From positions 2,108,001 to 2,172,000 of the forward strand of contig NZ_FSQT01000001.1 in NCBI RefSeq assembly GCF_900143515.1: a stretch of 64,000 bases of DNA, given 5' to 3'. The stretch comes from Micromonospora cremea (GTDB lineage: Bacteria; Actinomycetota; Actinomycetes; Mycobacteriales; Micromonosporaceae). Positions 28,386-45,075 of this stretch are shown in pieces. How positions within the stretch are numbered: position 1 is the first letter of the stretch; each line of letters begins with the position of its first letter. The translations under genes were made by a program, and so were the position numbers. The notes beneath the pieces are model-generated. The model saw only the letters and a list, made by a program, of their open reading frames with translations, ran no database searches and was not told the DNA's origin.

Positions 28386-29759
28386 GTGTTGACCAGCAGG
28401 CCCGGTCCGAGCACCGGTGGGACCGACGCGCCCGCGCCGGACGCGGACGGCTACGGCGCGCCCCGCCGGTTGTGGCGGGCCCTGGACCGGAACCGGCCAC
28501 CCGGTGTGGACGCGGCCGACCGGAGCTGGCGCAGTCCGTTGCGCGGCCCCTGGCTCACCGCTGTGTACGGGTCGGTGCTGCTGGTCGCGCTGCCCCTGGT
28601 GATCGTCACCGGGCTGCTCGACTACGCCGCCTACGGCCCCCGGTTCGACCAGGCGTTCCCGAGCAACGTGGGCTGGCTGCGGCTGCCCACCTTCGACTGG
28701 CCGACGCGGCCGTCCTGGCTGTTCCGGGTCACCCAGGGGCTGCACGTGACGCTCGGGATCGTGCTCATCCCGGTGGTGCTGGGCAAGCTCTGGTCGGTGA
28801 TCCCGAAGCTGTTCAACTGGCCGCCGGCCCGCTCGCTGGCCCAGGTGCTGGAACGGCTCACCCTGCTGCTGCTGGTCGGCGGGATCCTGTTCCAGATCGC
28901 CACCGGCCTGCTCAACATCCAGTACGCCTACCTCTTCGGCTTCGACTTCTACACCGCCCACTACTTCGGCGCCTGGATCTTCACCGGCGCGTTCGTGGCG
29001 CACGTCGTGCTCAAGCTGCCCCGGCTGATCACCGCGCTGCGGTCCCGCCCGCTCGGCGCGGAGCTGCGTACCCCGCGCGCCGCGACCCGGCCCGAGCCGC
29101 CCGACCCGGACAAACTGGTCGCCGCACGGCCCGGGCCGGCGACGGTCAGCCGGCGCGGCGCGGTCGGTCTGGTCGGCGGTGGCGCGCTGCTGCTGGCCGC
29201 GCTGACCGTCGGGCAGAGCCTGGACGGGCCGCTGCGCCGGACCGCGCTGCTGCTGCCCCGGGGTCGCCAGCCCGGTCCCGGTCCGAACGGCTTCCCGGTC
29301 AACCGCACGATCGCCGCCGCCGGCGTACGCCCCGAGCAGACCGGCCCCGGCTGGCGACTGATGCTGCGCGGCAGCGGCCGGACGGTGACCCTGGACCGGC
29401 CCGGGCTGCTGGCCATGGCGCAGCACACCGCCGCGCTACCCATCTCCTGTGTGGAGGGCTGGTCGACCCGGCAGACCTGGACCGGCGTACGGCTGCGGGA
29501 CCTCGCCGCCCTGGTCGGGGTCGCCGACCCGGCCGCCGCACGGGTGTCGTCGTTGGAGCGGGCCGGGCTGTTCCGGACGGCGGTGCTCGCACCCAACCAG
29601 GTCCTCGACCCGGACTCGCTGCTCGCCCTGCGGGTGAACGGCGTGGACCTCTCCCCCGACCATGGCTACCCGGCGCGGGTCATCGTGCCGGCACTGCCCG
29701 GGGTGCACTGCACGAAGTGGGTCGCGGAGATCGACTTCCAGGGCCGGGCCGATGACTGA
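28386..29759 (+). CDS. Membrane cytochrome b-like / sulfite-oxidase-type molybdopterin oxidoreductase fusion
   Basis: A 457-residue fusion. Residues 55-225 form about four transmembrane helices with histidines (GLHVTLG, YTAHYFGAW, FVAHVVLK) placed to bind b-type haem. After a linker and a Tat-like SRRGAVGLVGGGALLLA helix, residues 300-455 make a sulfite oxidase-type molybdopterin domain with the Mo-ligand cysteine in PISCVEGWS (C355). The design resembles YedYZ fused in one chain and suggests an exported reductase fed from the quinone pool. GTG 28386 has AAGGAG upstream. The next gene overlaps by 8 bases. Confidence 0.88.
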   Translation: MLTSRPGPSTGGTDAPAPDADGYGAPRRLWRALDRNRPPGVDAADRSWRSPLRGPWLTAVYGSVLLVALPLVIVTGLLDYAAYGPRFDQAFPSNVGWLRLPTFDWPTRPSWLFRVTQGLHVTLGIVLIPVVLGKLWSVIPKLFNWPPARSLAQVLERLTLLLLVGGILFQIATGLLNIQYAYLFGFDFYTAHYFGAWIFTGAFVAHVVLKLPRLITALRSRPLGAELRTPRAATRPEPPDPDKLVAARPGPATVSRRGAVGLVGGGALLLAALTVGQSLDGPLRRTALLLPRGRQPGPGPNGFPVNRTIAAAGVRPEQTGPGWRLMLRGSGRTVTLDRPGLLAMAQHTAALPISCVEGWSTRQTWTGVRLRDLAALVGVADPAAARVSSLERAGLFRTAVLAPNQVLDPDSLLALRVNGVDLSPDHGYPARVIVPALPGVHCTKWVAEIDFQGRADD

Positions 29760-30246
29760 CCTGGGGGCTCGGATGCGCGACGGCTACGGCGCCGGGCCTC
29801 GGCACCTGATCGTGGTGACGGCCGCCATCGTGCTCGCCGGCTGGGTGGCGCTGCGGCTGGCCGGGGAGGCGACCGCCGGCCGGATGCTGCTCTGGTTCCT
29901 CGGCGCGGTCATCGCCCACGACCTGGTGCTCTTTCCGGCGTACGCGACCGCCGACCGCGTGCTGCGCGCGCTGGTGCGGCCCCGGGCGGGCAAGCGGGTC
30001 GCCCTGCTCAACCACCTGCGGGTGCCGGCGCTCGCCAGCGCCCTGCTCTTCCTGGTCTTCGCCCCCGGCATCCTGCGGCTGGGCGAAACCACCCACCTCG
30101 CCGCCACCGGCCAGGACCAGCACCCCTACCTGGTGCGCTGGCTCCAACTCACCGTCGCCCTGTTCCTCCTCAGCGCCCTGGCATACGCCCTGCGCGCTCT
30201 CCCCCGCCGGCGTCAGTCATCCGGGAAGCGGTCGGAGAGGGCGTAG
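29752..30246 (+). CDS. Small membrane protein downstream of the oxidoreductase
   Basis: A 164-residue protein with four predicted transmembrane helices and no recognised family. It starts inside the oxidoreductase gene (8-base overlap), so it is probably an accessory membrane subunit. Histidines lie near helix ends (GAVIAHDLVLF, LLNHLRV, TTHLAATG). Its last 34 bases overlap the convergent RibD-type reductase gene. Confidence 0.7.
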   Translation: MTDLGARMRDGYGAGPRHLIVVTAAIVLAGWVALRLAGEATAGRMLLWFLGAVIAHDLVLFPAYATADRVLRALVRPRAGKRVALLNHLRVPALASALLFLVFAPGILRLGETTHLAATGQDQHPYLVRWLQLTVALFLLSALAYALRALPRRRQSSGKRSERA

Positions 30247-30920
30247 CGGAGCAGGACCACGTCGCCGATCTGGCGGGCCTCGGCCAGCCTCGCCCGGCGG
30301 CCGGGGTGCCAGGGGAAGCGACCCTCGCCGACGAACCGGGGCGCCCGGCCGTCGCCGACGAAGAACGGGGCGACCACCAGGTGCAGTTCGTCGGCGAGGC
30401 CGGCGGTGAGGAACTGGGCGTGCACCGTCCCACCACCCTCCACCATCAACCGCCGCACGCCCCGGGCGGCCAGGTCGGCCAGCAGCCATCCGGGGTCGAC
30501 CGGCTCGCCGGCGTCCACCACCGTGGCCAGCCGGCGGAGCCGTTCCCGGGTCTTCTCCAGCGCGTCGGTGGCGCAGTAGACGAGTCGGTCCGCGTCGCCG
30601 GCGGTGAAGAACCGGGCCGTCGGATCGAGGTCGCCCCGGGCGGTCAGGGTGACCTTGACGGGCGAGGCGGGCCGCCCGCACGCCACCCGCTCGGCCCGCC
30701 GCCGGGCCGAGCGCACCAGCAGCCGGGGATCGTCGCGGCGGACGGTGCCGGCGCCGACCAGGATCGCGTCGCAGCTGGCCCGGACCGCGTCGACCCGATC
30801 CAGATCGTCCGCGTTGGACAGCAGCAGCCGCTGGTCGGAGGCGTCGTCGATGTACCCGTCGATCGAGGTGGCGCAGCTCAGCAGCACGTACGGCCGCGCC
30901 AGCGCCGGCCGGCAGCTCAC
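30213..30920 (-). CDS. RibD C-terminal domain (DHFR-like) pyrimidine reductase
   Basis: A 235-residue stand-alone RibD-C reductase. LLSCATSIDGYID, AILVGAGTVRRDDPRLL and VEGGGTVHAQFL are the family signatures for NADPH and substrate binding. In riboflavin synthesis such enzymes reduce the ribosylamino-pyrimidine derived from GTP. Coupling to GTP cyclohydrolase II by a GTGA overlap suggests it acts on a product of that enzyme. Start is GTG 30920. Confidence 0.88.
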   Translation of the reverse strand: MSCRPALARPYVLLSCATSIDGYIDDASDQRLLLSNADDLDRVDAVRASCDAILVGAGTVRRDDPRLLVRSARRRAERVACGRPASPVKVTLTARGDLDPTARFFTAGDADRLVYCATDALEKTRERLRRLATVVDAGEPVDPGWLLADLAARGVRRLMVEGGGTVHAQFLTAGLADELHLVVAPFFVGDGRAPRFVGEGRFPWHPGRRARLAEARQIGDVVLLRYALSDRFPDD

Positions 30921-31618
30921 CGGGGGACGGGCCGGTCGGTGGTACGGCTGGCCGGCGCGGGCGGCGGCGCCACCGCCTCCGCCGCCTCGGTCTCCGCAGC
31001 CTTGGCCGCCTTCGCCGCGAGGTAGTTGGCGTTGGCCGGGGAGAGGTAGATGCCGGTGGGCACCCGCTCGGCGACCACCACACCCATGCGGCTCAACTGC
31101 TCGGCCTTGTCCGGGTTGTTGCTGAGCAGCCGGATCCGGGGCACGCCCAGGGTGGCCAGCATCTGCGCGGCGACGCTGTAGTCCCGCTCGTCCTCGCCCC
31201 GGCCGAGCGCGACGTTGGCCTGGTACGTGTCCAGCCCGGCGTCCTGGAGGGCGTACGCGTCGAGCTTGGCGTACAGGCCGATGCCCCGGCCCTCCTGACG
31301 AAGGTAGAGCAGGAAACCGCCGCTCTCGGCGATCCGCTGCACGGCCTCGCGCAACTGCGGCCCGCAGTCGCAGCGCTGGCTGCCGAACACGTCGCCGGTC
31401 AGGCACTCGCTGTGCGGACGGACCAGTGGCGGCTCGCCGTCGGCGGCGAGCCGGTCCAGCGCACCGGCCCAGTCGCCGAGGCCGAGGGCGAGGTGCTCCC
31501 GACCGTCCACAAGGCCCTTGAACGTGAACACCCGGGTGGTCGTGGTGTAGCCGTCGGGGAACGTCAGCGGCACCGTGACCTGCGTACGGACCGTGACGAC
31601 CGGCAATGTTTCGGGCAT
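30917..31618 (-). CDS. ribA: GTP cyclohydrolase II
   Basis: A 233-residue RibA-type enzyme without a fused RibB domain. Zinc cysteines are C72, C83 and C85 (SECLTGDVFGSQRCDCG), and LRQEGRGIGL and the tyrosine of DAYALQD (Y122) are canonical, which argues for the normal pyrimidine product rather than an altered activity. The C-terminal 40 residues are an Ala/Pro-rich tail. ATG 31618 has AAAGGAG upstream. It is separated from the main riboflavin genes and joined to PTPS, glycosyltransferase and methyltransferase genes, so it may feed a dedicated pathway. Confidence 0.93.
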   Translation of the reverse strand: MPETLPVVTVRTQVTVPLTFPDGYTTTTRVFTFKGLVDGREHLALGLGDWAGALDRLAADGEPPLVRPHSECLTGDVFGSQRCDCGPQLREAVQRIAESGGFLLYLRQEGRGIGLYAKLDAYALQDAGLDTYQANVALGRGEDERDYSVAAQMLATLGVPRIRLLSNNPDKAEQLSRMGVVVAERVPTGIYLSPANANYLAAKAAKAAETEAAEAVAPPPAPASRTTDRPVPR

Positions 31619-31676
31619 GGGACTCCTTTGTCCGGCGTCACCGCCGTGCGGCGACGCGTACCGTCTCACAACCGGA

Positions 31677-32615
31677 TCAACAGCCGCCGCCGGGAGCGGC
31701 TTCCCGGGTGGCGGCAGGAATCCGGGCCCGCCGGGCGAGCAGCACCGCGGCGCCGGGCAGGCTGGCAACCAGCACCAGTGCACCGTAGACGGTGGCGGTG
31801 GCGACGCCCTCGGTGGCGCTGAGCCCGGCCGCGCCGAACGCCCACGCGGCCACACCCTCGCGCGGGCCGAAGCCGGCGACGTTCAACGGCAGGCCCATGG
31901 CGAGCAGGGCGAGCAGGGTGAGCGGCAGCAGCCGGGTCAGCGGGGCGTCCGAGCCGGCGGTACGCGCCGCCACCAGGAAGGTGGCGAGGTGACCGGCGAC
32001 CATCACGGCGGAGGCGATCAGGACGCCGAACCACGTCCGCCGGGCGAGCAACCCGGCCCGGACGTCCGCCACGGCGGTCCGTAGGGCCCGCGCCCACCGC
32101 GACCGGCCGGTCTGCGGCAGGACCCGCGCCAGCAGCACGGCGGCCAACCCACCCGCGACCAGCAGCGCGGCGGCGGCCGGCAGGTACGGCCGCACCGGGG
32201 ACGGGAACGCGGCGAGCACCACCAGCGCGACGCCCACCAGGACCACCTGGCCGGCGGTACGCTCCCAGACCACCGCGCGGATACCCCGGCTGACGTCACC
32301 GGCGTCCCGGCCGTGGCGTAGCGCCCGGTGCACGTCGCCGAGCACCCCGCCGGGCAGGGTGGCGTTGAGGAACACCGCCCGGTAGCAGTGCGCCACCGCT
32401 GTCGCCAGGGGCAGCCGCACGCCCAGGCCGCCGGCGACCAGGCTCCACCGCCAGGCCGCGCAGACCGTGGTGAGCACACCGATGAGCAGCGCCGCGGCCA
32501 ACGCCGGCGCGTCGATCAGCCGCACCCCGGCGAGGAACGGGCCGCCACCCACCTGCCACAGCAGGGCGGCGAGCAGGCCCACCCCGCCGACCACCCGTGC
32601 CCAGGCCCAGAACAT
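31677..32615 (-). CDS. UPF0104 / lysylphosphatidylglycerol synthase TM-domain protein
   Basis: A 312-residue membrane protein of the YbhN/AglD family with about seven to eight helices. The segments YRAVFLNATLPGGVLGDVHRA and LPLNVAGFGPREGVAAWAFG are the two conserved motifs. Homologues move or modify lipids or lipid-linked groups. GGAGG precedes the start. It is in line between the methyltransferase and ribA, so it may export or flip the cluster's product. Confidence 0.88.
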   Translation of the reverse strand: MFWAWARVVGGVGLLAALLWQVGGGPFLAGVRLIDAPALAAALLIGVLTTVCAAWRWSLVAGGLGVRLPLATAVAHCYRAVFLNATLPGGVLGDVHRALRHGRDAGDVSRGIRAVVWERTAGQVVLVGVALVVLAAFPSPVRPYLPAAAALLVAGGLAAVLLARVLPQTGRSRWARALRTAVADVRAGLLARRTWFGVLIASAVMVAGHLATFLVAARTAGSDAPLTRLLPLTLLALLAMGLPLNVAGFGPREGVAAWAFGAAGLSATEGVATATVYGALVLVASLPGAAVLLARRARIPAATREAAPGGGC

Positions 32616-32680
32616 CGGCGCCGGTCCTCCCCTGAAGATCGTCCACTTGCCCTAGTGCACGTACCGGGAGCGCGAGCGGT

Positions 32681-33505
32681 TCATCCGCCGGCCAGGAGGT
32701 CCCGGTGCTCGACCAGCACCCCGAGCCGGCCGGCCGCCGCGTCGGCCAGCCGGCGCTGGGCGTACGCCCGGGCCGGGCCGGCCAGTTCCGGGCGCTGTTC
32801 GCAGGCCGCGCCCAGCCAGCCCCGGAACCACTCGGCGGTCAGGTCGGCCTGGTCCGGGCCGAGTCGCCACGGGCTGGGCCGTTCCCGGACCGGGACGCCC
32901 CGGCGGGCGAACGCGGCGGCGGTGGCGGCGACGGCGTCCGGGCCGAGCAGCCGCCGGCCGTCGACGGTGCGCCGCTGGTGGTCGTTGAACGCGGCCTCGA
33001 TCGTCGGGTCCAGCGGGTCGGCCGGGGTGAGCCGGACCCGCCCGGTGACCGAGATCGCGAACAGGGTGGGCCGGCCGGCGTCGGCGCAGGCGCCGACCAC
33101 CCGCTCGACCTCCTCCGCGGTCAGCATGTCCAGCAGCGCGGACGCGGTGACGAGGGCGCCGTCGGCCAGGTCGGCGGCGGTGAGCCGGGTGAGGTCGCCG
33201 CACCGGGTGCTGACCGTGACCGGTGCGCCGTCGGCGGCGGTGACCCCGGCCATGCCCTCCGCGGCCCGGGCGAGCAGGTCGGCGTCCCGGTCGTGCAGGA
33301 CCCAGTGCTGCGGGCCGGGCAGCCAAGCCGCCAGCCAGCGGCACATCGAGCCGGTGCCGCTGCCCAGGTCGTGGATCAGGGCCGGAGCGTCGCCGACCAG
33401 CCGGGGTCGGATCACGTCCACCAGGTCCTCGGCGCGGGCCGCCGCGTCGGCGGGCTCGCGCAGCCGCAGCCAGTCGGCGAACGGCAGGGTCTCCTCGACG
33501 GTCAT
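32681..33505 (-). CDS. Class I SAM-dependent methyltransferase
   Basis: A 274-residue methyltransferase with the SAM motif LIHDLGSGTGSMCRWLA and VLHDRDADLL as the acidic loop. A specific substrate cannot be assigned. It is joined to the preceding glycosyltransferase by an ATGA overlap and so belongs to the pterin-like operon. Confidence 0.83.
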   Translation of the reverse strand: MTVEETLPFADWLRLREPADAAARAEDLVDVIRPRLVGDAPALIHDLGSGTGSMCRWLAAWLPGPQHWVLHDRDADLLARAAEGMAGVTAADGAPVTVSTRCGDLTRLTAADLADGALVTASALLDMLTAEEVERVVGACADAGRPTLFAISVTGRVRLTPADPLDPTIEAAFNDHQRRTVDGRRLLGPDAVAATAAAFARRGVPVRERPSPWRLGPDQADLTAEWFRGWLGAACEQRPELAGPARAYAQRRLADAAAGRLGVLVEHRDLLAGG

Positions 33506-34584
33506 GCCGCCACCTCCTCGAGCACGGCAGCCAGCAGCGCGGTCGTCACCGGCCAGTCGGTCAGGGTGTCCCGCCGGGCCAGGGCGGCGTGCCGCAGCCG
33601 GGTACGCAGGGCGTCGTCGCCCAGCCAGCGCATCAGCGCGCCGGCCAGCGCGGCCGGGTCGTCCGGCGGGACCAGCAGCCCGGGCCGGTCACCGCCGGGG
33701 GCCCGGCCGAGCGCCTCCGGCAGGCCGCCCACCTCGGTCCCCAGCACCGGCAGGCCCCGGGCCAGCGCCTCGGTGACGACCATCCCGTACGTCTCGCCGC
33801 GCGACGGCAGCACCAGCAGGTCGGCGGCGGCGTACGCGGCGTCCAGCGCGGCGCCGGTCAGCGGGCCGGCCAGCCGGACCCGGTCGGCGATGCCCGCTCC
33901 GGCGAGCCGCTGACGCAGCCGGTGCACCAGCTCCGGCTCGCGGGCCAGCGTGCCGGCGCAGACCAGCGTCCACGGCAGCCCGGCGAGCGTGGACAACGCG
34001 TCCACCAGCACGTCATGTCCCTTGTGGCGGGTGACGGCCGCGACGCAGAGCAGCCGGTCGCCGGCTACCGAGCCGGGCGCCGGCGGGGCGGGCATCGCCC
34101 CCGGCGGCGCGGCCCGGACCCGGTCGGCCGGCAGCGGGTGGCGGGCCAGCAGCCGGCGGCGCGTCCACTCGCTGGTCGTGACGACGGCCCGGGTCGTGGC
34201 CAGGGCGCGGGCCTCGGCCTCGTCGTCCAGCGGCAGGTGCACCAGGACGACCAGGCGCAGCCGTCGGGCGTGCGGGACGAGCAGGTCCGGAACGGTCGAG
34301 GCGATCAGGCCGTCGAGCAGCACCACGGAGTCGTCCGGCGCGGCGGCCAGCAGCCGGGCCAGCTCCACCCGGTCGGCCGGGTCGGGGTACGGCCAGGCGC
34401 CGGGCACCGGATGTTCGTGGACCGACCAGCCCCGCTCGCCGAGCCCCCGGCAGATCCGCCGATCGTAGGAGTTGCCGCCGCTGGGCGTGGCCGGGTCGTC
34501 GATGTCGCCGGGCAGGACGACATGCACCGCACGGCCGGGCGAAGCGGGCCGGTCGACCGGCGTCGCCCGGCCCGCCCCGATCAC
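33502..34584 (-). CDS. Family 4 glycosyltransferase
   Basis: A 360-residue GT-B fold enzyme. The N-terminal domain has [19 protein letters not shown], the hinge leads into [19 protein letters not shown], and the UDP/GDP-sugar site ends in [19 protein letters not shown] with the EX7E pair. The start is GTG 34584 within a GTGA overlap with the PTPS homologue. It probably glycosylates a cluster intermediate in the cytoplasm. Confidence 0.9.
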
Positions 34585-34985
34585 AGCGACCGCTCGTAGC
34601 TGGCCCAGGCGACGTGTGACTCGTGCAGGGTGACGGTGATGCCGGCCAGCCCGCGCGCCCCGGCGCCCAGCTCACCGGCGTGCACCCGCTCGGCCAATCG
34701 GTCGGCGACGGTACGGGCCAGCACCTCGGTGGTGGTGTTCACCCCGGCGAACGCGGCCTCGTCATCGAGGTTGCGGTAGGTCAGCTCGCCGAGCACGGCC
34801 CGCAGTTGCTCGGTGGCCAGGCCGATGTCGACGACGATGCCATCGGCGTCCAGGTCGGGCCGCCGGAACGTCGCGTCCACCACGAAGGTCGCGCCGTGCA
34901 GGCGCTGGGCCGGGCCGAACACCTCGCCCCGGAAACTGTGGGCGATCATCATGTGATCCCGAACGGTCACGCTGAACACGGTCAC
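34581..34985 (-). CDS. 6-pyruvoyl-tetrahydropterin synthase homologue with altered zinc site
   Basis: A 134-residue T-fold protein of the PTPS/QueD family. The first zinc histidine is in MIAHSF (H16) and the second in LHGATF (H30). The canonical HGH pair reads HGA here (A32), so one of three usual zinc ligands is missing. The C-terminal [14 protein letters not shown] matches the usual substrate-anchor region. From memory, S. coelicolor SCO6650 is a close relative, near a GTP cyclohydrolase II paralogue. The activity is uncertain: PTPS, aldolase-like (AHMP-forming) or something new. It overlaps both neighbours by 4 bases. Confidence 0.85.
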
Positions 34986-35980
34986 TCCCCGTCGTCGTAG
35001 GTGATGAGGTGGCAGAGCGCGGCAAGGTCACCCGCGCTCAGTCGAGCGAGGACGTCGGGCAGCTCCGCGAACCGGGACGCGCCGGTGATCAACGCGTCGA
35101 AGGCCGGATCGTCGAGCAGGTCCAGGGCGAGCGCCAGCCGGTCGGTGTAGCTGCGCCGCCCCCGCCGTGCGGGCGCCACCATGCCGACCTGGCTGCTGCG
35201 CACGGTCAGCCGTCCGGAGTGGAACGCCCCACCGAGCGACACCTGCACCGGGCGGTCGCCGTACCAGCTCAGCTCGATCACCGTGCCCTCGGGCGCGAGC
35301 AGGTCCAGCGAGCGTTGCAGGCCGTCGGCGGTGGCGCTGGCGTGCACGACCAGGTCCCGGTCCCCGGCCGCGTCGGCCGGTTGGGCGAACCCGACGCCGA
35401 GCGCGCCCGCCACCCCCGCCCGGCGGGCGTCGGTGTCGACCAGTTCGACCTGCACGCCGGGGAACCGGGCGAGCAGCGCGGCGACGCAGCAGCCCACCAT
35501 GCCCGCGCCGACCACGCTGACCCGGTCGCCGACCAGCGGCGCGGCGTCCCAGAGCGCGTTCACGGCGGTCTCCACCGTGCCGGCGAGCACCGCGCGGGCG
35601 GGCGGCACGTCGTCCGGCACCGGCACCACGGCGGTGGCCGGCACGACGTACGCGCTCTGGTGGGGGTGCAGGCAGAAGACCGTGCGCCCGAGCAGCTCCG
35701 GTGGGCCCTGCTCGACCACGCCGACGCTGAGGTAGCCGTACTTCACCGGGCCCGGGAAGTCGCCCTCCTGAAAGGGCGCGCGCATCGCGGCGTGCTGGTC
35801 GGCTGGCACCCGGCCGGCGAAGACCAGCGTCTCGGTGCCCCGGCTGACCCCGGAGTAGCGCGCCCGGACCAGCACCTCGTCAGGGCCCGGTACGGGCAAC
35901 GACACCGGCCGGATCTCCGCCGCGCCGGGCTCGCGCACCCAGCAGGCGTACGCCTCGCGGATCACCGTCGCGCACCTCAC
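34982..35980 (-). CDS. Medium-chain zinc-type dehydrogenase/reductase
   Basis: A 332-residue MDR-family protein. The N-terminal GroES-like domain has [15 protein letters not shown] and the Rossmann motif [15 protein letters not shown] follows. The structural zinc cysteines of classical alcohol dehydrogenase are not evident, and the catalytic Cys is replaced in SGVSRGTE, as in the bacteriochlorophyllide/2-deoxy-scyllo-inosamine-like branch. It is the first gene of the operon, with GGAG five bases before GTG 35980. It is divergent by 78 bases from the CDP-alcohol phosphatidyltransferase. Confidence 0.85.
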
Positions 35981-36013
35981 CTTTGCTCCGGGCCGAACCG
36001 AACGGCCTCGTTT

Positions 36014-36052
36014 TCCGTGTTCCCTATCGGGGTCGTCGATCATAAACACGGA
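36014..36052. promoter_or_regulatory. Inverted repeat in the divergent promoter of the pterin-like/lipid locus
   Basis: TCCGTGTT (36014-36021) and AACACGGA (36045-36052) are perfect 8-base arms around a 23-base spacer, in the 78-base gap between the dehydrogenase (-) and phosphatidyltransferase (+) genes. The gap is more AT-rich than its surroundings. This could be an operator controlling both directions; the right arm overlaps the Shine-Dalgarno of the plus gene. Confidence 0.35.
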
Positions 36053-36058
36053 GGTACG

Positions 36059-37021
36059 GTGCCCACGATTCGAAGTGGTCCGATGATCGGGCTGAGCGCG
36101 CAACTGGTCGTGTTGGCGGCGCTGGCCGTCACGGTGGGGCTGGGCGGCGCGGGCTGGCTGGTCGGGACCGGCTATGCAGTGGTCACCTGCCTCGCGTTGA
36201 GCCGGGGCCTGCACCGGGCCGGTGCGTTCCGCCTCGGCCCGGCCGACCGCGTGACGCTGACCCGGGCCGTCTTGGTCGGCGCGGTCACCGCGCTGGTGGC
36301 GGACTCGTTCGGCCGGCCCGCGCCGGTGGGGTTGCTGGTCGCCGTGAGCGCGGTGGCGTTGCTGCTGGACGCGGTGGACGGGCAGGTGGCGCGGCGCACC
36401 GGCACGGTGAGCGCGCTCGGCGCCCGCTTCGACATGGAGGTCGACGCGTTCCTGATCCTGGTGCTGAGCGTGCACGTCGCGCCGGCCGCCGGCGGATGGG
36501 TGCTGGTTATCGGCCTGATGCGGTACGCGTTCGTCGCGGCGAGCGCGGTGCTGCCCTGGCTGGGCGGGTCGCTGCCGCCGCGCTACTGGCGCAAGGTGGT
36601 GGCCGCCGCGCAGGGGGTGCTGCTGGCGGTGGCCGCGGCGGAGGTGCTGCCCGAGCCGTGGACCACGCTGGTGCTGGTGGTGGCGTTGGCTCTGCTGGTC
36701 GAGTCGTTCGGCCGGGACGTGGCGTGGTTGTGGCGGCGCCGGCCGACGCTCCGGCAGGCCCACCCGGTGCCGGCTGCCACGACAGCGCCGACGGCGCCGC
36801 CTGTCATGCCAGCGCGGACCGCGTCGGTACCGTCTGCCGTGCCGGCGCGAACCGCGCCGCCGGTGCCCGCCCCGGTGGCCGGGCCGGTGGCTCTGCCGCC
36901 CCTGCTGCCGGTGGTCGTCCGGTCGACGGTGGCACTGCCGCCCCTGCTGCCGGTGCCCGCTCCAGCGCCCGCGATGGCGGCCGGCTCGGGCGGTACGGTC
37001 CACTCCGACTGGAGGCTGTGA
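36059..37021 (+). CDS. CDP-alcohol phosphatidyltransferase
   Basis: A 320-residue membrane enzyme. The family motif D-G-x2-A-R-x8-G-x3-D-x3-D is complete in DAVDGQVARRTGTVSAL followed by GARFDMEVD. About six hydrophobic helices are followed by an 80-residue Pro/Ala-rich tail with no domain. It joins an alcohol (inositol, glycerol phosphate or similar) to a CDP-diacylglycerol-type donor. GTG 36059 has GGAGG four bases upstream; ATG 36083 is an alternative. The stop overlaps the next ATG (TGATG). Confidence 0.9.
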   Translation: MPTIRSGPMIGLSAQLVVLAALAVTVGLGGAGWLVGTGYAVVTCLALSRGLHRAGAFRLGPADRVTLTRAVLVGAVTALVADSFGRPAPVGLLVAVSAVALLLDAVDGQVARRTGTVSALGARFDMEVDAFLILVLSVHVAPAAGGWVLVIGLMRYAFVAASAVLPWLGGSLPPRYWRKVVAAAQGVLLAVAAAEVLPEPWTTLVLVVALALLVESFGRDVAWLWRRRPTLRQAHPVPAATTAPTAPPVMPARTASVPSAVPARTAPPVPAPVAGPVALPPLLPVVVRSTVALPPLLPVPAPAPAMAAGSGGTVHSDWRL

Positions 37022-38769
37022 TGACCCTTCCCGCCCAGGTACGCCGACTGCTCGGCCGGTCCGATGCGCGCCGTCCGGTTGCGGACGAGGCGTCGGCGCG
37101 TACTCCCGGGGTGTCGGCCGCGGCCGGGCGCGGCCCGGCGCGGCGGGTGGCGGGCGGGGTGGGCAACGCGTTGGCCGTGCTCCTGGTGTTCGCCGTGCTG
37201 GTCGGCCCGGACCGGCTCGGCCTGCTCACGCCGGCCGCCTTCCTGCGCATCCCGCTGGAGGGGCTGCTCGTCGCCGCGCTGCTGCTGGCCCTGCCGGCGC
37301 GACCCCGGCGGGTGGTGGTGGCCGTGGTCGGGCCGCTGCTCGGCCTGTTCGCCATCGTGAAGCTCGCCGACCTGGGCTTCCGGACGGCTCTCGACCGGCC
37401 GTTCGACCTGGTGCTGGACTGGCTGCTGCTGGACGACGCGTTCGGTTTCGTCCGCGACTCGGCCGGTCAGGCCGGCGCGGTCGGCGCAGCGGTCGGCATC
37501 CTGCTGCTGGTCGGCGCGCTGCTGCTGGTGCTCACGCTGGCGCTGCGGCGGCTGGCGTCACTGCTGGTCCGGCACGAACGGGCGGCGACCCGGGCGGTCG
37601 CCGCGCTGACCGTCGCGTGGGTGGCCTGCGCCGTCGTCGGCGTGCGGGTCGCACCGGGCGTGCCGGTGGCCGACACCGGGACCACCGCGCTGGTCGGCGC
37701 GCACGCGACCCAGGTGGACGCGCGGCTGCACGACCGCGAGAGGTTCAATGCCCAGATCAACGCCGACCCGTTCGACGACACCCCGGGCGACCAACTGCTG
37801 ACCGGGCTGCGCGGCAAGGACGTCATCCTCGCGTTCGTGGAGAGCTACGGCCGCGACGCGGTGGAGGACCCGGAGCTGGCGCCGCAGGTCAACGCGGTGC
37901 TGGACGCCGGCACCGAGCGGCTGCGCGCAGCCGGCTACCAGGCGCGCAGCGGCTTCCTCACCTCCCCCACCTTCGGCGGCGGCAGCTGGTTGGCGCACGA
38001 CACGCTGCTGTCCGGCCTGTGGACGGACAACGAGCAACGGCACCGCACCCTGCTGGCCAGCGACCGGCTCACCCTCAACGGCGCGTTCCGCCGGGCCGGC
38101 TGGCAGACCGTCGGGGTGCTGCCGGCGGCCACCCAACCGTGGCCGGAGCAGGGATTCTTCGACTACGACCGCTACTTCGACGCGGAGGCCCTCGGCTACC
38201 GCGGACCGAAGTTCAGCTACGCCCCGATGCCCGACCAGTACACAATGTCGTTCTTCCAGCGGCAGGTACGCACCGGCGCCGACCGCCCGGTGATGGCCGA
38301 GATCCCGCTGATCTCCAGCCACTCCCCCTGGACTGCGGTGCCCCGGATGATCGGGTGGGACGAGGTGGGCGACGGCTCCATCTACCACGGCTCCGCGGTC
38401 GGCGAGGACAGCGGCGACGCCGACGACCGGAACACCGGCCAGATCCGCGGCGGGTACCGGCAGGCCATCGCGTACTCGCTGGAGACGCTGATCTCCTACG
38501 TGCAGACCTACGGGGACGACGACCTCGTGCTGGTCTTCCTCGGCGACCACCAGCCCGCCCCAGTGGTCACCGGCGAGGGCGCCAGCCGGGACGTGCCGAT
38601 CACCATCGTCGCCCGCGACCCGGCCGTGCTGGACCGGGTGGCGGGCTGGGGTTGGCAGGACGGCCTGCGGCCCGGCCCGCAGGCTCCGGTGTGGCCGATG
38701 GACACCTTCCGGGACCGGTTCCTGACCACCTTCGGACCGTCGACACCGCCGATCGCCGCGCCCCGTTGA
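37021..38769 (+). CDS. Membrane sulfatase-fold enzyme, LtaS/phosphoglycerol-transferase-like
   Basis: A 582-residue protein with five N-terminal helices and a C-terminal alkaline phosphatase-superfamily domain. KDVILAFVESYGRDAVED holds the first metal acid, SPTFGGGSWLAHDTLLSG the nucleophile region, ISSHSPW the histidine and VFLGDHQPAP the last metal pair. The architecture matches extracellular phosphoglycerol/phosphoethanolamine transferases or sulfatases. It is coupled to the phosphatidyltransferase by TGATG, so it probably modifies a lipid or polymer made by that enzyme. Confidence 0.88.
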   Translation: MTLPAQVRRLLGRSDARRPVADEASARTPGVSAAAGRGPARRVAGGVGNALAVLLVFAVLVGPDRLGLLTPAAFLRIPLEGLLVAALLLALPARPRRVVVAVVGPLLGLFAIVKLADLGFRTALDRPFDLVLDWLLLDDAFGFVRDSAGQAGAVGAAVGILLLVGALLLVLTLALRRLASLLVRHERAATRAVAALTVAWVACAVVGVRVAPGVPVADTGTTALVGAHATQVDARLHDRERFNAQINADPFDDTPGDQLLTGLRGKDVILAFVESYGRDAVEDPELAPQVNAVLDAGTERLRAAGYQARSGFLTSPTFGGGSWLAHDTLLSGLWTDNEQRHRTLLASDRLTLNGAFRRAGWQTVGVLPAATQPWPEQGFFDYDRYFDAEALGYRGPKFSYAPMPDQYTMSFFQRQVRTGADRPVMAEIPLISSHSPWTAVPRMIGWDEVGDGSIYHGSAVGEDSGDADDRNTGQIRGGYRQAIAYSLETLISYVQTYGDDDLVLVFLGDHQPAPVVTGEGASRDVPITIVARDPAVLDRVAGWGWQDGLRPGPQAPVWPMDTFRDRFLTTFGPSTPPIAAPR

Positions 38770-40877: not shown

Positions 40878-41990
40878 GTGGGTGAGGTGGTGAAGCGGGC
40901 GTACAAGTACCGCTTCTATCCAACCCCTGAGCAGGTTGAACAGTTGAACCGCACCTTCGGGTGCGTGCGCAAGGTTTACAACCTCGCCTTGGAGGCGCGC
41001 ACCCGTGCGTGGGCCGTTGACCGGCAGCGCAGCACCTATGTGCAGTCGTCTGCCTGGCTGACCGAGTGGAAGCGCACCGAGGAGCTGGCGTTCCTTAACG
41101 AGGTCAGCTCGGTGCCGTTGCAGCAGACGCTGCGGCACCTGCAAGCCGGGTTCGCCGCGTTTTGGGGCAAGCGGTCGCGCTACCCGCGTTTCAAGGCCAA
41201 GCGCAAGTCCCGGGCGTCGGCGGAATACACCCGCTCGGCGTTCCGCTGGCGTCACGGGCAACTCACCCTGGCCAAGATGGACGCCCCGCTGGGCATCGTG
41301 TGGTCGCGGCCCCTGCCCGAAGGGGCCGAACCGTCGACGGTCACGGTGTCCCGTGACGCGGCCGGTCGGTGGTTCGTGTCCCTGCTGGTCGATGACCCCA
41401 CCGTCAAGGCACTGCCGCCGCTGTTCACGGCGGTCGGGGTGGACGTGGGCATCACGAGCCTGCTCACCTTGTCCACCGGGGAGAAGATCACCAACCCGCG
41501 GCACGAGCGCGCTGACCGGCGCAAGTTGGCCAAGGCGCAACGCGACCTGTCCCGCAAGGGCAAGGACACCAAGAACCGGGCCAAAGCGCGACTCGCGGTG
41601 GCCCGCATTCACGCCCGCATCGCCGACCGGCGGCGGGATCACCTGCACAAGCTGTCGACTCGACTGGTCCGCGAGAACCAAACGGTCGTGATCGAAGACC
41701 TCAGCGTGCGCAACATGCTGCGCAACCACTCGCTGGCCCGCGCCATTTCCGATGCGGCGTGGACGCACCTGCGCAGCATGGTCGAGTACAAGGCCGCCTG
41801 GTACGGGCGGCAGGTTATCGCCGTCGACCGCTGGCATCCGAGCACGAAGACCTGCTCGGCGTGCGGGCGGATCAACACCGCGATGACGCTCGGCGTTCGC
41901 GTCTGGACGTGTCCCGGCTGTGATGCCGTGCACGACCGGGACGTCAACGCCGCCCGCAACATCCTCGCCGCCGGGCTGGCGGAGAGGTGA
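40878..41990 (+). CDS. tnpB: TnpB RNA-guided endonuclease
   Basis: A 370-residue intact TnpB. The RuvC-like residues are all present: D189 in GVDVGITSL, E273 in VVIEDLSVRN and D355 in HDRDVNAARN. The zinc finger is CSACG...CPGC. The N-terminal helix-turn-helix region begins RAYKYRFYPTPEQ. It should bind the overlapping right-end RNA (about 41991-42113) and cut DNA next to a short transposon-associated motif. GTG start at 40878. No lesion is seen, so it may be active. Confidence 0.95.
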   Translation: MGEVVKRAYKYRFYPTPEQVEQLNRTFGCVRKVYNLALEARTRAWAVDRQRSTYVQSSAWLTEWKRTEELAFLNEVSSVPLQQTLRHLQAGFAAFWGKRSRYPRFKAKRKSRASAEYTRSAFRWRHGQLTLAKMDAPLGIVWSRPLPEGAEPSTVTVSRDAAGRWFVSLLVDDPTVKALPPLFTAVGVDVGITSLLTLSTGEKITNPRHERADRRKLAKAQRDLSRKGKDTKNRAKARLAVARIHARIADRRRDHLHKLSTRLVRENQTVVIEDLSVRNMLRNHSLARAISDAAWTHLRSMVEYKAAWYGRQVIAVDRWHPSTKTCSACGRINTAMTLGVRVWTCPGCDAVHDRDVNAARNILAAGLAER

Positions 41991-42113
41991 AACGCCTGTG
42001 GAGGGACGGTAAGACCCGACCCGCGAAAGCGGTGAAGGCGCGGCCCGGTGAAACAGGAACCCCCTCGGGTGACCGAGGGAATCCCCGCCCTTCAGGGCGG
42101 TGGAGGATGTCAA
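41991..42113 (+). ncRNA. Probable right-end guide RNA scaffold (omega/reRNA) of the TnpB element
   Basis: The 123 bases between the tnpB stop and the right-end TCAA contain several short hairpins, ending with CCGCCC-TTCA-GGGCGG 10 bases before TCAA. In TnpB systems this segment is the scaffold and the bases just past the element are the guide. Here that would be GACCGATCCGTCCGAACCAC (42114-42133), inside the 3' end of the M15 peptidase gene. The scaffold may begin inside tnpB. Confidence 0.6.
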
Positions 42114-42751
42114 GACCGATCCGTCCGAACCACGCCGTCCCCCCGGCCGCAGGCGAGGCTCGCGGTGGCGCCCGGATGCGGCAGGCGGTCGGGCTGCCCG
42201 TCGGGACAGTACTCGAAATGCCACCACTCGTTGTCATACCTGCGGTACAGGCCGTACCGCGCGCCGTACCGCTCCAGCCAGTGCGCGCCTTCCGTGGGAC
42301 GGATGTCGAAGGCGACGCCCGCCACGTGGCGGGACTCGTGTGGCGGAAGCGTCCATCGCCGGGCGGCCTCCACCGACCCGCTGCGCTTGACCTCCTCGGC
42401 GTACAGAGCCGCCTGGGTGGCCGCGTCCCGGTAGCCGCAGGTCAGCCCGATCAGCTCCCCGTACCGCCACAACGCCAAGGTGCGCGCGGCCTCGAAGGCC
42501 GCCCGGGCCGGTGGCGCCAGGCCGGCTAGGTTCTCCGCCGGGAATCGCAACGCCAGCGCCCACTGGCAGGCCGTATGCCGGGCACGCCCCGGCGTGACCA
42601 GGCCGGCCACCGGCGTCAGCAGAACGGCCAGCAGTCTGGTGACGAGGCGGTACACCTGGTCCCTGGTGCGATCGGTCAGAATAGCGCCGGCCCGGCCGGT
42701 GGCGTTCACAGACATGCCCACCACGATTTCGATATCGACGGTGGAGAGCAT
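42110..42751 (-). CDS. VanY/VanX-type D-alanyl-D-alanine carboxypeptidase (M15), stop supplied by the transposon
   Basis: A 213-residue M15B-like peptidase. Zinc ligands are visible in SRHVAGVAFD (H, D) and EWWHFEY (H), with CGYRDAATQAALY upstream. It should trim peptidoglycan stem peptides. No clear signal peptide is seen; one hydrophobic segment near residues 38-52 may anchor it. The TGA is the reverse complement of TCA in the transposon right end, so the native C-terminus may have been a few residues different. The start may instead be ATG 42716. Confidence 0.8.
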   Translation of the reverse strand: MLSTVDIEIVVGMSVNATGRAGAILTDRTRDQVYRLVTRLLAVLLTPVAGLVTPGRARHTACQWALALRFPAENLAGLAPPARAAFEAARTLALWRYGELIGLTCGYRDAATQAALYAEEVKRSGSVEAARRWTLPPHESRHVAGVAFDIRPTEGAHWLERYGARYGLYRRYDNEWWHFEYCPDGQPDRLPHPGATASLACGRGDGVVRTDRS

Positions 42752-43426: not shown

Positions 43427-43445
43427 AACGGCAAGGATAGTTGCC
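43420..43445. promoter_or_regulatory. TTGCC dyad over the regulator start, probable autoregulatory operator
   Basis: TTGCCATAACGGCAA (43420-43434) is a perfect dyad spanning the regulator ATG, followed by a third TTGCC half-site at 43441-43445. It lies in the 74-base gap between the XRE/cupin gene and the divergent fusion gene, so one regulator could control both. Confidence 0.5.
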
Positions 43446-43500
43446 ACCTGGCCGGCGGCGACGGATGGTGGGCTCAGCCGACAACCAAGGAGAGACTCCG

Positions 43501-45075
43501 GTGGACGAGACATATGACGTGGTGGTGGTGGGCGGTGGCGCGGCGGGGCTCAGCGGGGCCCTGGCGCTGAGCCGGGCCCGACGGTCGGTGCTGGTGATCG
43601 ACTCCGGCGAGCCGCGTAACGCACCCGCCGACCATGTGCACAACTACCTGGCGCGGGAGGGGACGCCGCCGGCCGAGCTGGTCGCCGCCGGGCGCACCGA
43701 GGTCGCCGGGTACGGCGGCCAGTTCCTGGCCGGGCGGGTGGAGGCGGCGACCCGGGACGACGACGGGTTCCACCTCAGCCTCGACGACGGAGGCGCGGTG
43801 CGGGCCCGTCGGCTGTTGGTGGCCACCGGCCTCACCGACGAACTGCCCGACGTGCCCGGGGTGGCGCAGCGGTGGGGCCGCGACGTGCTGCACTGCCCGT
43901 ACTGCCACGGCTGGGAGGTCCAGGACCGGCGGATCGGGGTGCTGGCCACCGGTCCGCTGGCCGTGCACCAGGCCGAGATGTGGCGGCAGTGGAGCTTGGA
44001 CGTGCTGCTCCTGCTGCACGACGCCCCCGCGCCGGATGAGGAGACGGCCGAGCGGCTCGCCGCCCGGGGCATCGCCGTGGTGCCCGGCCCGGTGGCCGGA
44101 CTGGAGGTCACCGGGGATGCGCTGACCGGCGTCCGGCTCGCCTCGGGCCGGGTGGTGGCGCTCGACGCGGTGGTGGTCGCTACTCGGACCGCCCCCCGCG
44201 CCGGAATGCTGGTGGGGCTGGGTCTGGCTCCGGAGGAGGTGACGATGGGCGGGTACGTGATCGGCGCTCAGATCCCGGCCGACGCCACCGGGGCGACGAC
44301 CGTCCCGGGCGTGTGGGTGGCCGGCAACGTTGCCGACGTCCGCGGCCAGGTGATCGCGGCCGCGGCGGCCGGCCTCACCGCCGGGGCGGCGATCAACGCC
44401 GACCTGATCGCCGAGGACACCCGTGACGCGGTGGCCGCGTACCGGCAGTTGCGGGCCACGGCCTTCGAGCAGCCGGCGTGGGAGGAGCGCTACCGGTCCC
44501 GGCCGGCGGTGTGGAGCGGCCGACCGAACCCGCAGCTCGTCACCGAGGCCGCCGAGCTGGCCCCGGGACGGGCGCTGGACGTGGGCAGCGGCGAGGGCGC
44601 CGACGCGGTGTGGCTGGCCGAACGGGGCTGGCGGGTGACGGCGGTGGACATCTCCACCACCGCGCTGGGCAGGGCCGCCGGGCACGCCGAGACCGCCGGC
44701 GTCGGCGACCGCGTCGAGTTCACGCACGCCGACCTGCGCGAGAAGCCGCCCGCCGAGGAGGCGTACGACCTGGTGTCCGCGCAGTTCATGCACCTGCCAC
44801 CGGCGCAGCGGCAGGAGCTGTTCGCCCGGCTGGCCGCCGCGGTGGCGCCGGGCGGCACCCTGCTGATCGTGGGACACCACCCGTCGGACCTGTGGACGTC
44901 GGCGCACCGGATGCACCTACCGGACATGATGTACACGGCCGAGGAGGTGGCGGCCTCGCTCGACCCGGCCCATTGGGAAGTGCTCACCGCCGAGGCCCGC
45001 CCGCGCACCGGCACCGACCCCGACGGCCGTGAGATCACCCTGCACGACGCGGTCCTGGTCGCCCGCCGTCGCTGA
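43501..45075 (+). CDS. Thioredoxin reductase-like flavoprotein fused to a SAM-dependent methyltransferase
   Basis: A 524-residue two-domain fusion. Residues 1-310 form a thioredoxin reductase-like FAD/NAD(P)H protein with VVVVGGGAAGLSGALALSRA, the redox pair in HCPYCHGWE (C132, C135) and a late GVWVAGNVADVRGQ FAD motif. The canonical NADPH-binding glycine motif is weak (IGVLATGPLA). Residues 330-524 are a class I methyltransferase with LDVGSGEGADAVWLA and VTAVDISTT. It might reduce and methylate the same compound, for example in thiol or electrophile detoxification. GTG start with AAGGAG upstream. Divergent from its likely XRE/cupin regulator. Confidence 0.9.
   Translation: MDETYDVVVVGGGAAGLSGALALSRARRSVLVIDSGEPRNAPADHVHNYLAREGTPPAELVAAGRTEVAGYGGQFLAGRVEAATRDDDGFHLSLDDGGAVRARRLLVATGLTDELPDVPGVAQRWGRDVLHCPYCHGWEVQDRRIGVLATGPLAVHQAEMWRQWSLDVLLLLHDAPAPDEETAERLAARGIAVVPGPVAGLEVTGDALTGVRLASGRVVALDAVVVATRTAPRAGMLVGLGLAPEEVTMGGYVIGAQIPADATGATTVPGVWVAGNVADVRGQVIAAAAAGLTAGAAINADLIAEDTRDAVAAYRQLRATAFEQPAWEERYRSRPAVWSGRPNPQLVTEAAELAPGRALDVGSGEGADAVWLAERGWRVTAVDISTTALGRAAGHAETAGVGDRVEFTHADLREKPPAEEAYDLVSAQFMHLPPAQRQELFARLAAAVAPGGTLLIVGHHPSDLWTSAHRMHLPDMMYTAEEVAASLDPAHWEVLTAEARPRTGTDPDGREITLHDAVLVARRR

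Follow-up and report, generated by a model that had tools for sequence, protein, structure and literature searches.

A 64,000-nucleotide stretch of the Micromonospora cremea genome (NCBI RefSeq assembly GCF_900143515.1, contig NZ_FSQT01000001.1, positions 2,108,001 to 2,172,000; hereafter the window) contains a compact cluster in which GTP cyclohydrolase II (GCH II), a stand-alone RibD_C reductase and a homologue of 6-pyruvoyltetrahydropterin synthase (PTPS) stand beside sugar-, methyl- and lipid-transferring enzymes, and the question it raises is what such a combination might make. An original prediction had seen here a candidate new pathway towards a glycosylated, methylated pterin-like or lipid-linked product. 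From gene content, conservation, co-occurrence, residues and predicted folds, we tentatively propose that the nine genes of the cluster encode the synthesis of an unusual phospholipid's head group, with GTP as the starting compound.

Gene layout and conservation of the cluster

Open reading frame (ORF) translations and a Pfam scan of the window place nine genes between positions 30213 and 38769, and all the predicted products (RibA, RibD-C, PTPS homologue, dehydrogenase, glycosyl- and methyltransferase, membrane protein, divergent phosphatidyltransferase and sulfatase-fold enzyme) were confirmed where they had been placed. With start codons chosen by us, seven genes lie on the minus strand, from the dehydrogenase, transcribed first, to RibD_C, transcribed last; four of their six junctions overlap by 4 bases and the remaining two are gaps of 58 and 65 bases, which bears out the overlapping operon of the original prediction. 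The phosphatidyltransferase and sulfatase-fold genes run divergently on the plus strand, 93 bases (35966–36058) from the chosen dehydrogenase start, and likewise overlap by 4 bases, making five such overlaps among the nine genes. This 93-base region is a putative site of promoters; a consensus scan of it found no sigma-70-type site.

A neighbourhood comparison across actinobacteria, as proposed with the original prediction, was run on the best 80 of at least 463 PTPS relatives in named species genomes. All 80 loci were examined, and the core was found in every one, across 14 genera and two unplaced metagenome-assembled genomes (MAGs). The sample is skewed towards Micromonospora (25/80) and Streptomyces (23/80), and part of the cluster lies beyond the end of some loci. 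PTPS and GT4 glycosyltransferase genes were present in all 80 loci, the dehydrogenase in 79, the membrane protein in 78, the methyltransferase in 77, an adjacent phosphatidyltransferase in 72, GCH II in 70, a creatininase-family gene in 41, RibD_C of whatever kind (>60 bits) in 39, and the sulfatase-fold gene in 25. Gene order differs at the cluster edges: Actinomadura and Nocardiopsis have GCH II and the phosphatidyltransferase upstream of the dehydrogenase on the same strand, and Streptomyces loci read PTPS, GT4, methyltransferase, membrane protein, creatininase (other strand) and RibA2. Rubrobacter-family (f18) loci, including L150 of Rubrobacter radiotolerans, keep the order RibD_C–dehydrogenase–PTPS–GT4 (3/3 read) at 31–38% identity, and genome G008 contains the dehydrogenase, PTPS, GT4 and phosphatidyltransferase. 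A look at nearby ORFs, predicted with a simple GC rule, revealed no additional specific biosynthetic gene recurring across genera; where a few loci had neighbour groups in common, these encoded transporters, regulators and similar proteins.

A dedicated pathway is supported because the dehydrogenase–PTPS–GT4 block recurs (79/80 loci, the eightieth starting inside the block) and because the genome has GCH II elsewhere as well. The original prediction had named a housekeeping-only ribA as the finding that would speak against it; the 7.76 Mb genome holds a second GCH II match, in a frame of 579 amino acids about 2 kb from a RibD, and the cluster gene as sole housekeeping copy was thus ruled out. 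While the notion of a dedicated pathway stands, that of a wholly new one does not, the structure of SCO6650, the Streptomyces coelicolor counterpart of the PTPS homologue, having already been solved (3d7j).

Some loci carry neighbours of their own. In the Rubrobacter family, the RibD_C–dehydrogenase–PTPS–GT4 genes adjoin one gene that is FolB-like by eye and another for an acyltransferase of PlsC type (PF01553; below cut-off in L150) (L149:5968–7530, L150:11601–13019), and BLASTP detected no kinship between the cluster methyltransferase and the neighbouring L149:10644–11543, a methyltransferase by Pfam. Two genes resembling mycofactocin MftE and MftF by eye lie directly upstream of the Thermomonospora cluster (L118:5955–8136). 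In Amycolatopsis, an inositol-monophosphatase family gene (PF00459; L085:14633–15442), a possible pathway phosphatase outside the core, stands beside the creatininase gene.

Proposed opening of GTP and reduction of the ribosyl group

The cluster GCH II, RibA2 (30917–31618, minus strand; Pfam GTP_cyclohydro2, 8.9e-57), retains the three zinc Cys and the Tyr at the position of Escherichia coli Tyr105 that mark a canonical GCH II. Across the 70 cluster GCH II sequences, this Tyr is found in 30, none of which has a local creatininase-family gene, and another residue in 40 (Met 26, His 12, Cys 1, Gln 1), all of which have one; Streptomyces loci combine the Met type with a creatininase-family gene. 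No such gene was found among the annotated cluster genes of the window (Pfam) or in close Micromonospora loci, and the window thus lacks both the non-Tyr residue and the creatininase neighbour of the SCO6655-type, formyl-APy-forming clusters. With Tyr105 kept and no creatininase gene present, the direct, canonical product is predicted for RibA2: it would probably open GTP to 2,5-diamino-6-(phosphoribosylamino)pyrimidin-4-one (APy) in one step, and in SCO6655-type clusters the same conversion would take two, GCH II yielding formyl-APy (FAPy) and the neighbouring creatininase-family enzyme (SCO6654) deformylating it. The distribution of residue 105 and the creatininase gene fits this division between GTP to FAPy to APy there and a single step in the window. 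In locus L079 the Met is residue 120, in agreement with the Met120 of SCO6655, an enzyme reportedly assayed by Spoonamore et al. in 2006 and said to stop at formyl-APy on account of this residue. The creatininase-family enzyme BrbF is reported to deformylate formyl-APy (PMC9478397). Pattern matching finds the creatininase metal-site blocks intact in 39 of the 41 cluster proteins, and inspection by eye in the other two.

In a tree of 51 GCH II rows, the non-Tyr type forms one side of one branch (support 94/82), the Tyr clade of the window (100/100) is separate from the housekeeping copies, and the L073 and L087 sequences (100/100) form a third line whose placement is unsure, with long branches. 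Given these separate lines, GCH II seemingly entered this neighbourhood more than once.

Downstream of RibA2, the archaeal-like RibD_C reductase (30213–30920, minus strand; Pfam RibD_C, 1.5e-45) was delimited within a 397-amino-acid frame that begins too far upstream, its domain covering residues 172–385 of that frame and starting at the RibA2 stop. It falls within a cluster-type clade lacking a deaminase neighbour, and has Ser where the housekeeping RibD of the same genome has Lys, a residue that we take to read the deaminated base. In a search of 33 cluster genomes (batches of 15 and 18), 26 had no local substitute, and 25 of these, all but the MAG G403, yielded a RibD_C orthologue (the L093 copy is in two pieces); it was found in none of the other seven, which carry a substitute (L071, L073, L076, L080, L087, L089 and L098, which are all such loci among the 80). 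Since orthologue and substitute exclude each other, the pattern speaks for a needed reduction step, and we lean slightly towards a role in which RibD_C would reduce the ribosyl to a ribityl phosphate. The 2-amino-4-oxo edge would be retained because no dedicated deaminase is present. A dedicated deaminase in the window pathway was considered and rejected: the deaminase beside an unlinked RibD_C (L152:2240–2689) gave no match at 1e-15 in five Micromonospora-type genomes (G000, G204 and three others) and none at 1e-5 in the 80 cluster loci.

Elsewhere, RibD_C and a dCMP-type deaminase form a separate conserved operon (L152:1498–2689; also L153–L155, L158, L159, L161–L165 and L184–L193), which in three Streptomyces (L163, L189, L193) is accompanied by a divergent Tyr-type GCH II, amounting to a split RibD with a purpose of its own.

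Proposed later steps and rival explanations

The predicted steps beyond reduction begin with the first two genes of the operon. The MDR-fold dehydrogenase (34982–35965, minus strand) is nearest to the NCBIfam model bchC, below cut-off (4.2e-14; 52 bits vs 291), and has only weak Rossmann matches in Pfam; the usual MDR zinc ligands are missing by eye, and blocks such as PHQ, SWY and SQVG are common to relatives as far as Rubrobacter. The PTPS homologue (T-fold; 34581–34985, minus strand; Pfam PTPS, 9.2e-23) has SCO6650 as its sole PDB match (3d7j, E 1.4e-66), in line with the comparable S. coelicolor set SCO6650–SCO6655 named in the original prediction. It cannot be filed as a PTPS, because Ala/Thr/Tyr stand in place of the canonical Cys/Asp/His triad and Ala in place of one of the three zinc His, departing from the PTPS/QueD residues. 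The anchor Glu122 is invariant in 11/11 rows, including Rubrobacter, whose homologues retain all three zinc His; the functional roles of the triad, zinc and Glu positions are those we presume for this family.

It is conceivable, if doubtful, that the BchC-like dehydrogenase oxidises a ribityl hydroxyl and that the resulting dihydroneopterin phosphate is processed by the PTPS homologue, in which the Glu is retained. Oxidation at C2' would give a 1-amino-2-keto intermediate, as formed by GTP cyclohydrolase I, and closure onto the 5-amino group would give dihydroneopterin phosphate, a route that follows from how GTP cyclohydrolases I and II are known to react. It would not serve folate, since all tested genomes have an ordinary GTP cyclohydrolase I (20/20, ten from the Rubrobacter family f18); the idea that the cluster replaces a missing folate enzyme was ruled out on the same count.

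The GT4 glycosyltransferase (33502–34584, minus strand; Pfam Glyco_trans_1_4, 8.5e-28) and the class I S-adenosylmethionine-dependent methyltransferase (32681–33505, minus strand; Pfam Methyltransf_25, 2.4e-06) have about an even chance of decorating the product. The phosphatidyltransferase (36059–37021, plus strand; Pfam CDP-OH_P_transf, 7.3e-13, 49.6 bits vs a cut-off of 22) carries the class motif D..DG..AR........G...D...D, and its fold is nearest to PgsA and phosphatidylinositol-phosphate (PIP) synthases, at about 15–17% identity. Those enzymes use polyol phosphates, and the window enzyme may plausibly, at somewhat under even chances, couple a polyol phosphate to CDP-diacylglycerol. Of 396 genomes of the phylum, 10 have this PTPS, and the nine in which the phosphatidyltransferase orthologue was found all belong to those 10; it was also present in 7/7 tested cluster genomes where it is not adjacent. 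Judged from its distribution in genomes, this confinement points to a GTP-derived phospholipid head group in many actinobacteria.

A flipping role for the membrane protein (31677–32615, minus strand; Pfam LPG_synthase_TM, 1.6e-27) is tentative; its match to the flippase-like domain TIGR00374 (2.2e-05) is below cut-off. The sulfatase-fold protein (37018–38769, plus strand; Pfam Sulfatase, 1.9e-08) combines membrane helices with a sulfatase-fold catalytic domain, an LtaS-like architecture, and conserves the blocks ESYG, SH.PW and GDHQP. Its best Foldseek match is LtaP (4uop, 9.3e-11), with a weak profile match to the same entry (E 0.00038, no single stretch significant) at about 15% identity; transfer of the head group to an outside acceptor, in some species, would be a conceivable but rather unlikely last step. 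In its most complete form, the proposal would describe a new class of membrane lipid, in which C1' reduction and C2' oxidation re-create the GTP cyclohydrolase I intermediate and the pterin receives sugar and methyl groups, is linked to diacylglycerol and is moved outside the cell; we consider this full sequence improbable. Of the product first predicted, the co-travelling of modifying and lipid genes holds up, while its pterin-like nature is conjecture, the PTPS homologue being without the catalytic triad.

The cluster could instead be two neighbours, RibA2 and RibD_C only supplying more of a precursor of flavin, lumazine or F420 and the remaining genes making an unrelated glycolipid. Unlinked-type RibD_C orthologues returned by the searches adjoin a dCMP-type deaminase in 21 of 25 cases (26 loci are given, and L194, which holds no orthologue, is left out), the set needed for ribitylaminouracil; G008 holds the other core genes named above without RibD_C; and G396 and G397 show a single GCH II match each, housekeeping-like by tree or frame length. 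We nevertheless doubt this division, as GCH II of more than one lineage and RibD_C of unrelated families occupy the same cluster, orthologue and substitute are mutually exclusive, and the RibD_C–dehydrogenase–PTPS–GT4 adjacency holds in Rubrobacter-family loci too. Another possibility is a soluble glycosylated, methylated pterin or pyrimidine, for which cyanobacterial pterin glucosides and plant vicine are precedents, with the phosphatidyltransferase and LtaS-like enzymes serving another lipid. The GT4, methyltransferase and PTPS fold would suit such a product, and Rubrobacter-family genomes have the four-gene order with no match to this phosphatidyltransferase (1e-20, sampled genomes); it is made unlikely by the confinement of the phosphatidyltransferase to PTPS genomes and its retention where unlinked, including in G008. 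Highly improbable is a toxoflavin-like secondary-metabolite cluster, with GCH II and a RibD-like enzyme supplying the precursor of an azapteridine: that pathway likewise has GCH II, an enzyme related to RibD and a methyltransferase, but the cluster in the window, with its lipid enzymes and PTPS fold, is conserved over many genera, and no other recurring biosynthetic gene was found around it.

The deaminase neighbours, the RibD_C gap in G008, the Rubrobacter-family genomes lacking the phosphatidyltransferase and the single GCH II matches of G396 and G397 also weigh against the proposed pathway from GTP to a phospholipid head group, and they are joined by several further observations. A local GCH II is missing in 10/80 loci, of which L058 and L072 end early. 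The other eight genomes were searched: a Tyr-type copy lies elsewhere in G399 and in G402 (next to RibD_C in the latter), G403 has a His-type copy with a creatininase gene beside it, G396 and G397 have the single matches just named, G398 has none, and G400 and G401 have only other matches; riboflavin-pathway APy could serve genomes of this kind. In the Sciscionella locus L086 a creatininase gene is present but no local GCH II. MftE is the best-scoring model for the creatininase-family proteins, below its cut-off, and four of them match NCBIfam ArfB weakly, also below cut-off. Related genomes are not independent, and the non-Tyr/creatininase state, lying on a single branch of the tree, is one change kept since, not forty. 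The best NCBIfam model for the window RibD_C, the archaeal reductase TIGR01508, scores 137.5 bits, below its cut-off of 186.45, and the L073 and L087 reductase substitutes carry the Lys of ordinary RibD. Finally, the RibD_C–deaminase module has a life of its own, because it was also found in five sampled genomes without PTPS at 100 bits.

Beyond the cluster, the window contains, on the plus strand, a gene for cytochrome b561-like helices followed by a molybdopterin oxidoreductase domain (28386–29759), an IS605 OrfB/TnpB-type gene (40878–41990; PF01385, PF07282) and a thioredoxin-reductase-like domain fused to a methyltransferase domain (43441–45075; PF07992 and PF13649), and, on the minus strand, a VanY-family D-Ala-D-Ala carboxypeptidase domain (42110–42751).

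Comparison with known systems

SCO6650, a PTPS fold reportedly without PTPS activity, and SCO6655 have hitherto had no pathway, and the pattern of residue 105 and creatininase genes names SCO6654 as the consumer of the formyl product. As far as our searches reach, the creatininase pattern, the replacement of the reductase and the coupling to a phosphatidyltransferase are apparently undescribed, and no product for the cluster was found in the literature searched, which lay mostly outside subscription journals. In published data for S. coelicolor, SCO6652 is about 4 log2 units higher in differentiated mycelium at 48 and 72 h (PMC3610822), and SCO6655 and the other GCH II, SCO2687, appear in a gene list most members of which are up in stationary phase (PMC2853524); a developmental role is therefore possible.

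The window shares with SCO6650–SCO6655 an SCO6650-like PTPS together with GT4, methyltransferase, membrane protein and GCH II, which places it among clusters of this type, and the Streptomyces gene order fits the six consecutive numbers, as read from other Streptomyces loci with the middle numbers inferred. It differs in that its GCH II is of the Tyr type, adjoins RibD_C and has no creatininase gene nearby, whereas Streptomyces has the Met type with creatininase. The archaeal entry to riboflavin and F420 (ArfA, ArfB and a reductase) and bacterial BrbF have in common with the present scheme a two-step opening of GTP with a creatininase-family deformylase (PMC9478397). A further likeness is that reduction precedes deamination in the archaeal entry. 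The differences are that GTP would be opened by a GCH II in the present clusters, that candidate deformylases fall below the ArfB and MftE cut-offs, and that the cluster has no deaminase.

The remaining likenesses concern single enzymes or gene content. The T-fold and anchor Glu are common to the PTPS homologue and 6-pyruvoyltetrahydropterin synthase/QueD, from which it differs in the triad and the one zinc His. The phosphatidyltransferase shares the CDP-alcohol motif and fold of PgsA and the PIP synthases, and the sulfatase-fold protein the helices, catalytic domain and conserved blocks of LtaS/LtaP, each at the low identity given above. Compared by gene content, toxoflavin-type azapteridine clusters also have GCH II, an enzyme related to RibD and a methyltransferase, whereas the PTPS fold, GT4, dehydrogenase and lipid enzymes belong to the window cluster.

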